Shown here: in pieces, positions 6,484 through 10,145 of the stretch
How the letters are laid out: each line of letters begins with the position of its first letter
Position numbering within the stretch: the stretch's first letter is position 1
NCBI GenBank assembly: GCA_947587485.1
Contig: CANPXZ010000008.1
Location: 1 to 32,019 of the forward strand
Source of the DNA: an uncultured Oscillospiraceae bacterium
GTDB lineage: Bacteria > Bacillota > Clostridia > Oscillospirales > Oscillospiraceae
Direction of reading: 5' to 3'
Length of the DNA stretch: 32,019 nucleotides
Notes under the pieces: generated by a model
Databases searched by the model: none
What the model was told of the DNA's origin: nothing
What the model saw: the letters and a program-made list of their open reading frames with translations, nothing else
Program-made: the position numbers and the translations under genes

Positions 6484-7754
6484 GACGAGCGAAAATGACC
6501 CTGGCGGCGGCCCTGGCGGCAGCGCTGACGCTGGGCCTGGCCCCGGCTGCCTTGGCGGAGGCCGAGCCGGCGGGCAAGGAGGAAGTGGTTTACATAAATC
6601 TTGACTCCGCCGGGCAGGCGGAGTCGGTGGACGTGGTGAACATCTTCGACCTGGCCCAGGAGGGGCGGATCGTGGACCACGGGGATTACGCCACTGTGCG
6701 CAACATGACCGGCACGGAGGAGCTCACCCTCACGGACGGGACGGTGACGGCCCAGGCCGGGCCCGGGCGGCTCTACTACGAGGGCCGGCTGGAGGGCGCG
6801 GCGATCCCCTGGAACGTGTCGCTGCGGTACTTCCTGGACGGGCAGGAGCGGCCGGCGGCGGAGCTGGCGGGGGCAAGCGGCGAGCTGGAGATCCGCCTGA
6901 CGGCGGAGAAAAACCCCGACTGTCCCGGCACGTTCTTCGAGGACTATGCCCTACAGGCCACGCTGACCCTGGACGGGGACCGGTGCCAGGACATCGACGC
7001 CCCCGGGGCCACGGCGGCCAACGTGGGCGGCGACAAGCAGCTGACCTATACGGTCCTGCCGGGCATGGGCGCGGACGTGACGGTGAAGGCCCGGGTGACG
7101 GACTTCGAGCTGGAGCCGGTGGCCATCAACGGCGTGCGGCTGACGCTGGACGTGCCGTTGGAGGACGGGGCGCTCCGGTCCCGCCTGAGTCAGGCCGGCT
7201 CCGTGATCTGGTCCTTGAACGACGGCATCCTCCGGTTGGAGAGCGGCCTTGGGACCCTCCAGGGCCAGTCCGCTGAGATCACCGGCGGGGCCGACGGGGT
7301 GACGGAGGCCCTCTCGCAGCTGCAAACGGCGGCGGAGGCGCTGGACGCGTCGGACCCGGCCGAGGCGGAGCTTCTGGCGCAGATCGACGCCCTGGCGGAG
7401 CGGTACGAGGCCCTGGACGGCGGCCTGCGGGACTATACCCAGGCGGTGGGGGACGCCTACGATCAGACCGTGCAGCTGCGGGATGACGCGGGCTGGCTCA
7501 CCACCGGCGCGGCGCTGCTGGCGGTGATGGGGCCCTCCCTGCAGGATGAGGCGGACCGGCTGGGCCAGGTGCTGGACAGCGTGTCCGGCGGCGGGGAGAG
7601 CGTATCCTTTGCCTCGGCGGAAAACGGGACCGTGAAGGCGGTGCAGTTCGTGCTCCGTACCCCGGCCATCGAAAAACCGGCCCCGGAGGACCCGGCCCCG
7701 GAGCCGGAGCAGCAGGACCAGTCCTTCTGGGAAAAGCTGACGGCGCTGTTTTGA
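6480..7754 (+). CDS. Secreted partner of the MMPL exporter (YhgE-like extracytoplasmic protein)
   Basis: Encodes 424 aa. A signal peptide spans residues 1-26, with basic start MRRAK, an Ala/Leu core and the AALA cleavage site. A beta-rich region follows (to about residue 230), then a helical stretch of about 110 residues, and a Pro/Glu linker (KPAPEDPAPEPEQQ) ending in SFWEKLTALF. Layout and phrasing resemble secreted proteins that sit next to MMPL exporters in Clostridia and are related to YhgE/Pip proteins with X-X-X-Leu-X-X-Gly heptads; here the heptad region is poorly preserved. The final aromatic-amphipathic tail may touch the membrane or the exporter. The ATGA overlap with the exporter strongly suggests joint function, perhaps as an outside adaptor. 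That role is inference. Confidence 0.8.
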   Translation: MRRAKMTLAAALAAALTLGLAPAALAEAEPAGKEEVVYINLDSAGQAESVDVVNIFDLAQEGRIVDHGDYATVRNMTGTEELTLTDGTVTAQAGPGRLYYEGRLEGAAIPWNVSLRYFLDGQERPAAELAGASGELEIRLTAEKNPDCPGTFFEDYALQATLTLDGDRCQDIDAPGATAANVGGDKQLTYTVLPGMGADVTVKARVTDFELEPVAINGVRLTLDVPLEDGALRSRLSQAGSVIWSLNDGILRLESGLGTLQGQSAEITGGADGVTEALSQLQTAAEALDASDPAEAELLAQIDALAERYEALDGGLRDYTQAVGDAYDQTVQLRDDAGWLTTGAALLAVMGPSLQDEADRLGQVLDSVSGGGESVSFASAENGTVKAVQFVLRTPAIEKPAPEDPAPEPEQQDQSFWEKLTALF

Positions 7755-7763
7755 CAGATGAAT

Positions 7764-7800
7764 GTGCGCGTCCGGAAAACCGGACGCGCACATACTTTGT
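7764..7800 (+). terminator. Terminator of the MMPL operon
   Basis: A perfect 12-bp stem, GTGCGCGTCCGG (7764-7775) with CCGGACGCGCAC (7780-7791), closes an AAAA loop and is followed by ATACTTTGTT. It begins 10 bp after the stop codon. Confidence 0.75.
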
Positions 7801-7965
7801 TGAATGGGGCCCCCAACAGGCACGCCTGCCTGTTGGGGAAAGGAGGAAGGGTTTTGACCGATGAGTGGGCCTTGCCTGCAAGGACCGCGAATCTTCAAAA
7901 CTCTTCCGACGAACGGCTATTGCCGTTTACAGATCGAAAAACCGGGGCCCTGCCGATTTTTCTGC

Positions 7966-7994
7966 TTGCGTTACATGGAATAATGCGCTACAAT
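7966..7994 (+). promoter_or_regulatory. Promoter of the structured RNA at 8001-8213
   Basis: TTGCGT (7966-7971), 17 bp, then TACAAT (7989-7994). The predicted first base, 7 nt downstream, is 8001-8002, exactly where the closing stem of the RNA begins. No other promoter is visible before the 8289 gene, so this one may also serve it by read-through. Confidence 0.7.
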
Positions 7995-8000
7995 ATAGGC

Positions 8001-8213
8001 GCGAGATAAACAAAGGGCGGGACGTGAAAGACGGCAGTCCTTCACGCCCCTATGCAGGAGCCGTAACCTCCTACACAGCAGAATTACTGCGCCGGACCTA
8101 TTATAACCGCAACCCGTTCCTTTTACAAGGCCGGTTTATGCGGATGATGGGGTCGTGCTGTTGTTCCACGGTGTAGGGATAGAATGCCCTACGCCGTCTT
8201 TTGTTTGTCTCGG
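8001..8213 (+). ncRNA. Structured non-coding RNA, about 213 nt, family not assigned
   Basis: The two ends pair: CGAGATAAACAAA (8002-8014) with TTTGTTTGTCTCG (8200-8212), 12 Watson-Crick pairs and one G-U. Inside are four separate elements. A hairpin at 8015-8049 has GGG/CCC, CGTGAA/TTCACG and GAC/GTC. A small hairpin spans 8056-8072 (AGGAG/CTCCT). A long arm closes with ACAGCA (8075-8080) and TGCTGT (8156-8161) and contains GACC/GGTC, CCGCA/TGCGG and CCTT/AAGG. An 11-bp hairpin spans 8168-8197 (one G-U, 8-nt loop). The last hairpin followed by CTTTTGTTTG can also act as a terminator. A promoter fits the 5' end. There is no sensible ORF. The branched shape argues against 6S RNA; a raiA-type RNA or a new class is possible. 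Identity uncertain. Confidence 0.65.
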
Positions 8214-8288
8214 CGGGAAGGCTCGCGGGCGGGAGACCGCCCCGGGCCCGACTGCCGGGAAACAAAAAGAAAGGAACGGTATGATCTC

Positions 8289-10145
8289 ATGGCAAAGCGC
8301 AGTTTATGCATGCTCCTGGCGGTGGCGACGCTGTTCTCCCTGGCCGCCCCGGCCTTCGCGGAGGAAGCCCCGGCGGAGCCGGTCGTCACCGAGGAGCCCG
8401 TTGTCGAGGCGGCGGAAGAGCCCGTTGTGGAGGCGGAGGTCCCCGTCGAGGAAGCCGCCCCCGTTGAGGAAGCAACCCCCGTCGAGGAGCCCATGCCCGT
8501 CGAGGCGGCGGAAGAGCCTGTCGTCACGGAGGAGCCGGTCGAAGAGCCCGAGGCGGCCGAAGCTCTTGAGGAAGTCGAAGAGCCTGCGGCCATTGACGAG
8601 CCCATGCCGGCGGAGGGAGCGGCCACCTCCGGCAGCTGCGGGAACGGCGTCACCTGGTCTCTGTCAGGGGACGGCACACTCACCATCTCCGGCAGCGGAG
8701 CGATGGACGTTTTTGCGACCGATGATTACGGAAACGAGCTGTCCCCCTGGCGCGCTCTGCGCGATCAGGTCACAAAAATCGTCGTCCAGTTCGGCGTTAC
8801 CAGCATCGGCAGCAATGCGTTTTATCGCTGTGACAATCTGGTGAGCGTGGATATCCCGGCCAGCGTGACCAGCATTGGAGAGGATGTGTTTCCGTTATAC
8901 AGCATAACGGACATCTCGGTGGACGGGAACAATCAGAACTACGCCTCTGTGGACGGCGTGCTGTTCAACGCGGACAAAACGACGCTGATCCGCTATCCGT
9001 GCGCCAAGACGGCCGCCTCGTATGCCATTCCCGACACGGTCAGGACCATTGGCGAGGGCGCCTTCAGCTATACCACCAAGCTCACAAGCGTCCGCATTCC
9101 CGACGGCGTCACGGCGATCGGAAACGGCGCGTTCAACTGGTGCCTGAGTCTGACCGAAGTCAACATCCCGGCCAGCGTGAAGACCATCGGCAACTTTGCG
9201 TTTGACACATGCAAGATGACCTCTTTGGAGATCCCCGAGGGCGTGGTCAGCATCGGAGAGTGGGCGTTTCATGGCTGTAAACTGACCAGCGTGACGGTCC
9301 CTGCCAGCGTGACCTACCTGGGAGAGGAAGCGTTCTACACAGACACGTTAAAAAGTATAACAGTCCTGAACCCCGACTGTGTCATTGGCCATGAAACATA
9401 CAAAGAGGGCGACGAACATTATGCCTCCATAGATTTAACGCTTGGCGATTATGGTACAGTGATTTACAGTTATGACGGGTCTACGGCGGAGGCATATGCC
9501 AAGAGATGGGGTTATACCTTCAAATCTTTGGGGAGCGTACCCCAGCCTACCGCCACGCCCAAGCCCACCGCGACCCCCACGCCGGCTAAGCTGGCAACGC
9601 CCAAGATCACAAAGATGGAGAACACCGCCAGCGGCTTGAAGGTGACCTGGGGCAAGGTGGACGGCGCGGTCCGGTACACGGTGTTCTACAAGCTCAAGGG
9701 AGCCTCGAAGTGGACCAAGATCGGTACCACCACCGCCACCAGCTACACCCGCAAGGCCAAGGACCTGAAAAGCGGCAAGACCTACGTTTTCACTATCCGC
9801 TGTGTGAAAAACGACAAAAAGACCTACACCAGCGACTATGACAAGACCGGAAAGAGCCTGACCTATTATGCGGCCCCGACGGTGAAGATCGCGAAGGCAT
9901 CCAACGGCGGGATCAAGGTGACATGGAACAAGGTCGCGGGAGCCAGCCGCTATATGGTCTATTACAAGGAAAACGGCGGGAGCTGGAAGCGGATCGGCAC
10001 CACCACGGCTACCAGCTACACTCGGGCGGCGTCCAAGCTGAAAAACGGCGTGACCTATGAGTTCACGGTCCGGTGCGTGAAGAACGACAAGAAGACCATG
10101 CTGAGCTCGTATAAAGCCAGCAACAGTCTGAAGTATAAGAAGTAA
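8289..10145 (+). CDS. Secreted BspA-like leucine-rich-repeat protein with two FN3 domains
   Basis: Encodes 618 aa from ATG 8289. The start is chosen because it opens a clean signal peptide (MAKRSLCMLLAVATLFSLAA, cleavage after AFA); GAAAGGA lies 12 nt upstream, rather far. Residues 25-110 are Glu/Pro/Val-rich repeats (EEPV-type). Residues about 115-410 are BspA/LRR_5 repeats of the form SIGxxAFxxCxxLTSVxIPxSV. A PTATPKPTATPTP linker near 419-432 leads to two C-terminal FN3 domains that share GTTTATSYTR and RCVKNDKKT word for word, indicating duplication. There is no LPXTG or SLH anchor, so the protein is released or held non-covalently. BspA-like proteins bind host or bacterial surfaces. No promoter of its own is visible; transcription may come through the RNA upstream. 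Confidence 0.9.
   Translation: MAKRSLCMLLAVATLFSLAAPAFAEEAPAEPVVTEEPVVEAAEEPVVEAEVPVEEAAPVEEATPVEEPMPVEAAEEPVVTEEPVEEPEAAEALEEVEEPAAIDEPMPAEGAATSGSCGNGVTWSLSGDGTLTISGSGAMDVFATDDYGNELSPWRALRDQVTKIVVQFGVTSIGSNAFYRCDNLVSVDIPASVTSIGEDVFPLYSITDISVDGNNQNYASVDGVLFNADKTTLIRYPCAKTAASYAIPDTVRTIGEGAFSYTTKLTSVRIPDGVTAIGNGAFNWCLSLTEVNIPASVKTIGNFAFDTCKMTSLEIPEGVVSIGEWAFHGCKLTSVTVPASVTYLGEEAFYTDTLKSITVLNPDCVIGHETYKEGDEHYASIDLTLGDYGTVIYSYDGSTAEAYAKRWGYTFKSLGSVPQPTATPKPTATPTPAKLATPKITKMENTASGLKVTWGKVDGAVRYTVFYKLKGASKWTKIGTTTATSYTRKAKDLKSGKTYVFTIRCVKNDKKTYTSDYDKTGKSLTYYAAPTVKIAKASNGGIKVTWNKVAGASRYMVYYKENGGSWKRIGTTTATSYTRAASKLKNGVTYEFTVRCVKNDKKTMLSSYKASNSLKYKK

Follow-up and report, generated by a model that had tools for sequence, protein, structure and literature searches.

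What is encoded between positions 7966 and 8213 of the 32,019-nucleotide stretch of Oscillospiraceae DNA analyzed here (the window)? An initial annotation had read this region as a stand-alone, self-closing structured RNA of about 213 nt with its own promoter, perhaps raiA RNA or a new class. The promoter, TTGCGT-17-TACAAT, is present on the plus strand at 7966-7994, with a start predicted at ~8001, and it recurs in related copies, though taken alone it agrees with the consensus at just 8 of 12 positions, lies under the cut-off of the promoter scan and is not listed there. The closing stem P1, in which 8002-8014 pairs with 8200-8212 on the plus strand, also forms, being part of the MFE structure of 8002-8207 and of longer segments. 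The plus-strand fold of 8002-8214 has a free energy of -96.2 kcal/mol (z -5.96), with none of 200 shuffles as good, and an ORF check found no convincing open reading frame that would explain the region. The promoter, the stem and the hairpins are thus real, but they do not make up one self-closed RNA. What is structured and conserved here is instead the leader in front of a protein gene, with a predicted antisense RNA lying across it.

Rfam 15 gave no gathering-score match in the window, and 24 related loci (sixteen found with the core pattern and eight further ones) gave tRNAs only. 6S RNA, tmRNA, SRP RNA, T-boxes and the known riboswitches were likewise without a gathering-score match in the window and these loci. 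Even at E values up to 10, the scan of 7900-8300 matched no family beyond a single spurious snoRNA (E 9.4). raiA RNA ranges over the Firmicutes and is of similar size, about 210 nt (209 model positions in RF03072), but its gene association and strand logic differ. The suggestion of raiA was rejected, as RF03072 did not reach its gathering score and gave no match between 7900 and 8300 even with E values of 10 allowed. A search for raiA in 20 relatives found none, but 14 control genomes likewise gave no match, so that this search carries no weight of its own.

Covariance models find 11 copies of the element, this one included, in its own genome, which is 74% complete. Related copies are carried by many gut bacteria, some with ten or more per genome. 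Counts over contexts refer to 137 distinct sequences from 166 matches kept; there were five failures, and matches near locus ends were skipped and left uncounted. Contexts were selected by the -10 of a minus-strand promoter and by the CUAUGCAGGAG/CUCCYACACAGC core, so the conservation of these two is partly by construction; the -35 TTG and the promoter spacing played no part in the selection.

When a base pair changes by way of G.U in one strand, the other strand shows A.C at that position, and by this measure the hairpins of the element belong to different strands. In the plus reading the 5' hairpin P2 (8019-8050) has 145 A.C cells against 4 G.U (91 sequences; alignment A3, from 132 unique cores). 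It wobbles solely in the minus reading and is therefore conserved as minus-strand RNA. The sense terminator (0 A.C vs 111 G.U cells), the 3' hairpin (2 vs 113) and P1 over its four inner pairs (1 vs 16), each counted over 61 sequences (alignment A1, from 70 copies), are rich in G.U and not in A.C, and are therefore plus-strand structures. For the minus strand we aligned 52 sequences (A4: 46 of the 132 unique cores and six of eight distant matches, L199 and L201 being omitted as doubtful). For hairpin H2 this gives 369 Watson-Crick and 146 G.U cells, with 2 A.C and 3 of other types; the corresponding counts for H3 are 531, 69, 5 and 14. H1, with 173 Watson-Crick, 10 G.U, 11 A.C and 14 other cells, favours neither strand clearly.

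Covariation among the homologues is strong, and the plus alignment and the minus model both beat shuffles. In the minus RNA model 95.5% of the cells are paired, 18 pairs are altered on both sides, and 0 of 500 shuffles attain any of five measures (52 sequences). The 5' half of the plus alignment outdoes shuffles on most measures, 0 of 500 attaining the cells paired or the covariation score. Its further pair types are no better than chance, 456 of 500 shuffles reaching the count vs 0 of 500 for the minus alignment, which is a different set of sequences. A stand-alone structured plus-strand RNA, raiA-like or new, would explain the stable plus fold and the measures on which the plus alignment succeeds. 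It would leave unexplained the chance-level pair types and a leader that runs on into the gene, it has no counterpart in Rfam, and the minus strand folds more significantly than the plus (z -8.03 vs -5.96); we regard it as extremely improbable. The locus is a warning that an RNA on the opposite strand can yield strong plus-strand folds and covariation.

The minus strand also has the better promoter. A scan of 7600-8500 listed one site, TTGTAA-17-TATAAT on the minus strand at 8100-8128, inside the element. It agrees with the consensus at 10 of 12 positions and has a predicted start at ~8093. The conserved plus-strand motifs CATTATA and CAAG are the reverse complement of its -10 and -35. The -35 begins with TTG in all 137 contexts and scores on average 4.07 of 6, compared with 2.54 at displaced control positions. 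Its distance to the -10, taken as the best of five spacings tried (15-19), is 17 nt in 134 contexts, 18 in two and 16 in one. The RNA predicted to start here is about 85 nt long (8010-8093, minus strand), folds into three hairpins and is supported by covariation; 8094-8006 folds at -48.2 kcal/mol, and covariance model R2 matches the window copy at 8007-8097 with an E value of 3.4e-22. Hairpin H2 (8050-8077, minus strand), identified from the minus reading of related copies, carries a hypervariable loop. H3 with its U-rich tail (8010-8050, minus strand; covarying stem 8050-8019) is terminator-like by its stem and tail U-runs, the run being short in many contexts (length 2 in 20 of 137 and 3 in 73).

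On the plus strand, conservation does not end at 8214. It runs on through the hairpin at 8209-8259, and in aligned copies one conserved block spans promoter to start codon, including the T, A, A, A and T positions of the sense -10, which are kept in 133 to 136 of 137 contexts. We therefore describe 8001-8288 (plus strand) as the 5' leader of the gene that follows. RNAalifold on alignment A1 gives 39 pairs and leaves the middle unpaired. An intrinsic terminator lies at 8168-8207 (plus strand; ACGGUGUAGGG / CCCUACGCCGU, then CUUUUGUUUG), on the evidence of a terminator scan, folds and the wobble counts. Between it and the ribosome-binding site stands the 3' hairpin (8209-8259, plus strand), found in the fold as well as in the wobble counts. 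P1 is a plus-strand pairing as annotated, yet its inner half joins the tracts of two terminators: an A-rich stretch that corresponds to the U-tract of the antisense terminator pairs with the sense terminator's U-tract. On its 3' side P1 shares bases with that U-tract and with the beginning of the 3' hairpin. Within 8200-8259 the bases CUCG serve both in the 3' strand of P1 and in the outer pairs of that hairpin, which puts the two stems in partial competition. In L101, L104 and L119 the GAGA-type sequence of P1 recurs, by eye, in the 3' strand of the 3' hairpin. A strong terminator-like hairpin also lies upstream, at 7762-7793 on the plus strand, just after an ORF that ends at 7754.

The 5' arm of the terminator doubles as the 3' strand of a predicted antiterminator. 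In the MFE structures of transcripts ending at 8178-8190, CUCCUACAC (8068-8076, plus strand) pairs with GUGUAGGGA (8171-8179), and when the window leader was folded stepwise as it grows this pairing held over those ends and the terminator took over from 8198. The uncut leader favours the terminator; in the window copy the antiterminator duplex is worth -12.5 kcal/mol and the terminator hairpin -19.4. The same switch was looked for in the 136 of 137 contexts with a recognised terminator arm. Truncated before the 3' arm, the leader forms the antiterminator in 104 and has an MFE without it in 32; the complete leader folds the terminator in 132, and both states are found in 100. A U-run of at least 3 follows the terminator in 135 of the 136, and the antiterminator contact is -12.3 vs -7.4 for shuffled arms. 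The table of antiterminator pairs lacks 7 contexts, and some of its rows took an upstream GUGUGG and not the terminator arm. Ten more divergent contexts keep the pairing in nine (duplexes of -11.5 to -14.1), with linked changes of CCAUACAC together with GUGUAUGG or GUGUGUGG in L256-L258. In the tenth, L254, CCGUACAC stands opposite GUGUAAGG with one G.A mismatch by eye.

Some copies have additional hairpins. Ten (L007, L008, L009, L031, L045, L061, L062, L066, L068 and L069) have an extra GC-rich hairpin with a U-rich tail after the leader, which may be a second termination point. In two distant single copies, L202 (G081) and L203 (G370), the last hairpin holds the GGAGGG ribosome-binding site paired with CCCTCC, which suggests extra translational control.

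Two features of the antisense attenuator class are present at the sequence level, an internal promoter for a counter-transcript and an intrinsic terminator ahead of the gene, and a third is predicted, an alternative antiterminator whose 5' strand lies under the antisense RNA. The element is thus probably a chromosomal antisense-RNA transcription attenuator, a reading in which we have good confidence. RNA polymerase would initiate at ~8001 and transcribe the leader of a gene for a secreted leucine-rich repeat (LRR) protein. In an unbound leader, CUCCUACAC would pair with the emerging GUGUAGGGA, and this antiterminator would block the terminator so that the gene is read. The constitutive-looking minus promoter within the leader would supply the ~85-nt antisense RNA, which covers 8010-8093 and with it the antiterminator strand. 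On binding of its loops to the nascent leader the antiterminator strand would be occupied, the terminator would form, and transcription would stop ahead of the gene. The G.U pairs of the antisense stems are A.C mismatches in the sense strand; the antisense RNA would therefore form rigid hairpins and leave the sense strand free for the antiterminator. Recognition through hypervariable loops would restrict each antisense RNA to its own leader. The strand of each hairpin, both promoters, the alternative pairings, the distribution and the gene association are read from sequence comparison; that both RNAs are made, that antisense binding triggers termination and that the loops set specificity we infer from the same features.

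Both RNAs could also be real and the terminator a fixed brake, the antisense RNA acting on finished mRNA (through RNase III cleavage or decay, or blocked translation) or the polymerases colliding. The antisense promoter and its RNA are the firmest part of the evidence, and the two promoters are convergent and ~100 nt apart. Such routes would not need an antiterminator pairing kept with linked changes in divergent lineages, however, and the antisense region stops ~195 nt ahead of the start codon, so we consider them unlikely.

Attenuation by antisense RNA has precedents. Leaders of staphylococcal and streptococcal rep genes have two mutually exclusive folds, and the antisense RNA causes a terminator to form ahead of the ribosome-binding site (PMC8383071). 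In pT181 the lower part of a kissing hairpin has a C-A interior loop and holds the antiterminator (PMC3753616). The pT181 repC and pIP501 repR attenuators have the same architecture as the present element. They control plasmid copy number, whereas the present element is chromosomal, has many copies per genome and precedes secreted-protein genes. We rejected a plasmid copy-control module on the grounds that the gene here encodes an LRR protein, no rep was among the downstream Pfam matches and none of 72,556 plasmid records matched the window copy by blastn. Two chromosomal or virulence-plasmid antisense RNAs that end transcription of a non-replication gene are RnaG, acting on icsA in Shigella, and RNAbeta, acting on the fat operon of Vibrio anguillarum; one of the targets is a surface protein (PMC8383071). 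These are described there as single loci, whereas the present modules are paralogs of one another and form a family in which the loops vary. By analogy of architecture, the element would work like the pT181/pIP501, icsA/RnaG and fat attenuators. Searches of Rfam and of open-access literature yielded no earlier description, though the many thousands of unnamed candidate motifs reported in PMC8040213 may include the element. Antisense attenuation is textbook material in the case of individual genes and a handful of plasmids; the present family seems to use it as a repeated chromosomal module for secreted and surface proteins.

The gene downstream (8289-10145, plus strand, ATG at 8289) encodes a BspA-type LRR protein of 618 aa with a signal-peptide-like N-terminus, the first 477 aa of which match LRR_5 at an E value of 3.5e-64. 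LRR_5 was found in 33 of 51 downstream proteins scanned with Pfam, out of 68 ORFs called; of the other 17, three ORFs and four groups were sampled. Downstream ORFs look secreted in 106 of 133 contexts (55 of 66 from named contigs and 51 of 67 from the genus set) vs 137 of 653 control ORFs, with four of the 137 contexts lacking an ORF, several of the cases called not secreted looking like wrong start choices, and the controls having a longer length limit and a stricter ribosome-site rule and including some downstream genes. Exceptions include AMP-binding enzymes (L031, L069), acyltransferases (L008, L068) and small non-secreted proteins. In the distant copy L258 a small membrane protein follows. 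The chromosomal type I toxin-antitoxins ldr/rdl and ibs/sib are also paralogous sense/antisense pairs with pair-specific recognition. Their targets are short hydrophobic toxins, whereas those of the present element are mostly large secreted proteins; with a gene of 618 aa here and not a short hydrophobic toxin ORF, this class was rejected.

Dispersed copies, ends with inverted A-rich and U-rich tracts, and the frequent position of the copies of genome G565 near contig ends could also be expected of a non-autonomous, MITE-like mobile repeat with inverted termini. We give this the least credence of all, virtually none. The leaders stand directly upstream of genes that look secreted far more often than the control ORFs, and the compensatory changes and fixed promoter spacing point to selection on the RNA and the promoters.

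The most variable parts of the element are the H2 loop and the H3 apex. This bears on whether the leader could be a plus-strand ligand riboswitch or protein-binding leader with incidental minus-strand signals. A dispersed leader with a terminator and an antiterminator before related genes does resemble riboswitch regulons. Here, though, the loops are the least conserved part, a promoter of fixed spacing runs backward across the would-be pocket and the G.U wobbles of the 5' hairpin fall on the opposite strand from the one this reading needs, making it very improbable. The single plus-strand RNA, riboswitch and MITE readings were all rejected.

Under the preferred antisense attenuator, variable loops would set which RNAs recognise each other. 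Comparing copies within each of four genomes gave 164 pairs, 33 of which have minus-promoter spacers with two mismatches or fewer over 17 positions. Among these close pairs a single one has identical H2 loops, and a single one identical H3 apices. Their loops differ by 0.47 and 0.38 of length, compared with 0.24-0.30 for the plus spacer, linker and 3' hairpin, these pairs being partly non-independent and copies cut at contig ends missing; random loop pairs differ by 0.57. Thirty pairs chosen by linker similarity gave 0.53 and 0.40 vs 0.23-0.30. That loops differ even in close paralogs suggests private specificity, and the divergence fits selection for private recognition, which it does not prove. 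Across all genomes an H2 loop is shared by 2 of 182 pairs within a genome and by 5 of 2096 pairs between genomes; loops are therefore not unique in a strict sense, and sharing is no rarer within genomes than between them.

A broader reading, which we hold tentatively and with somewhat more doubt than belief, is that a genome carries a set of mutually orthogonal antisense attenuators, one antisense RNA per surface-protein gene, whose loops diversify under selection after duplication. A dozen or more surface proteins could then be set or varied singly, or be expressed by turns through cross-talk between look-alike loops. The carriers are common, poorly studied gut Clostridia, and their surface variation would become directly testable. 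Orthogonality is a stated bottleneck for synthetic biology (PMC3753616), to which the family would supply a natural library of candidate orthogonal attenuators.

We also surveyed how widely the element occurs. Of 60 genomes searched at the DNA level, 24 had copies, and all of these belong to the window's genus (24 of 35 inside it and 0 of 25 outside). Within the same family the element is in 49 of 150 genomes and 40 of 106 genera, with the highest copy numbers in G565 (28) and G474 (14); of the 101 genomes without it, one (G016) is of the same genus. Under stricter filters, and counting the window genome, it was found in 9 of 393 genomes of the class sample (first model) and 8 of 398 of the phylum sample (second model). 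In three genomes of one distant genus (f198/g492) the copies number 2, 4 and 7. The core pattern occurs in at least 111 stretches of named genomes, many of them rabbit caecal Oscillospiraceae bins, and among the matches listed are records labelled Flintibacter, Flavonifractor, Oscillibacter and Lachnospiraceae.

With the window copy as blastn query, neither 72,556 plasmid nor 50,697 phage records gave a match, and a plasmid or phage origin was rejected on this ground. The core pattern does occur in one viral contig (L204), near-identical to the bacterial L114 and ahead of a signal-peptide-like ORF. In G565, whose copies include L239-L248, many of the copies are close to the ends of contigs, and the genes after L241 and L244 encode small non-secreted proteins that are nearly identical; the module may thus be carried there on a repeated, perhaps mobile unit. 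Two weak matches, L199 (G351) and L201 (G225), have a similar 5' hairpin, a CAGGAG/CTCC hairpin, ATTATA and CAAG. They adjoin a small ORF, presumably phage-like, and are possibly a reduced relative of the element.
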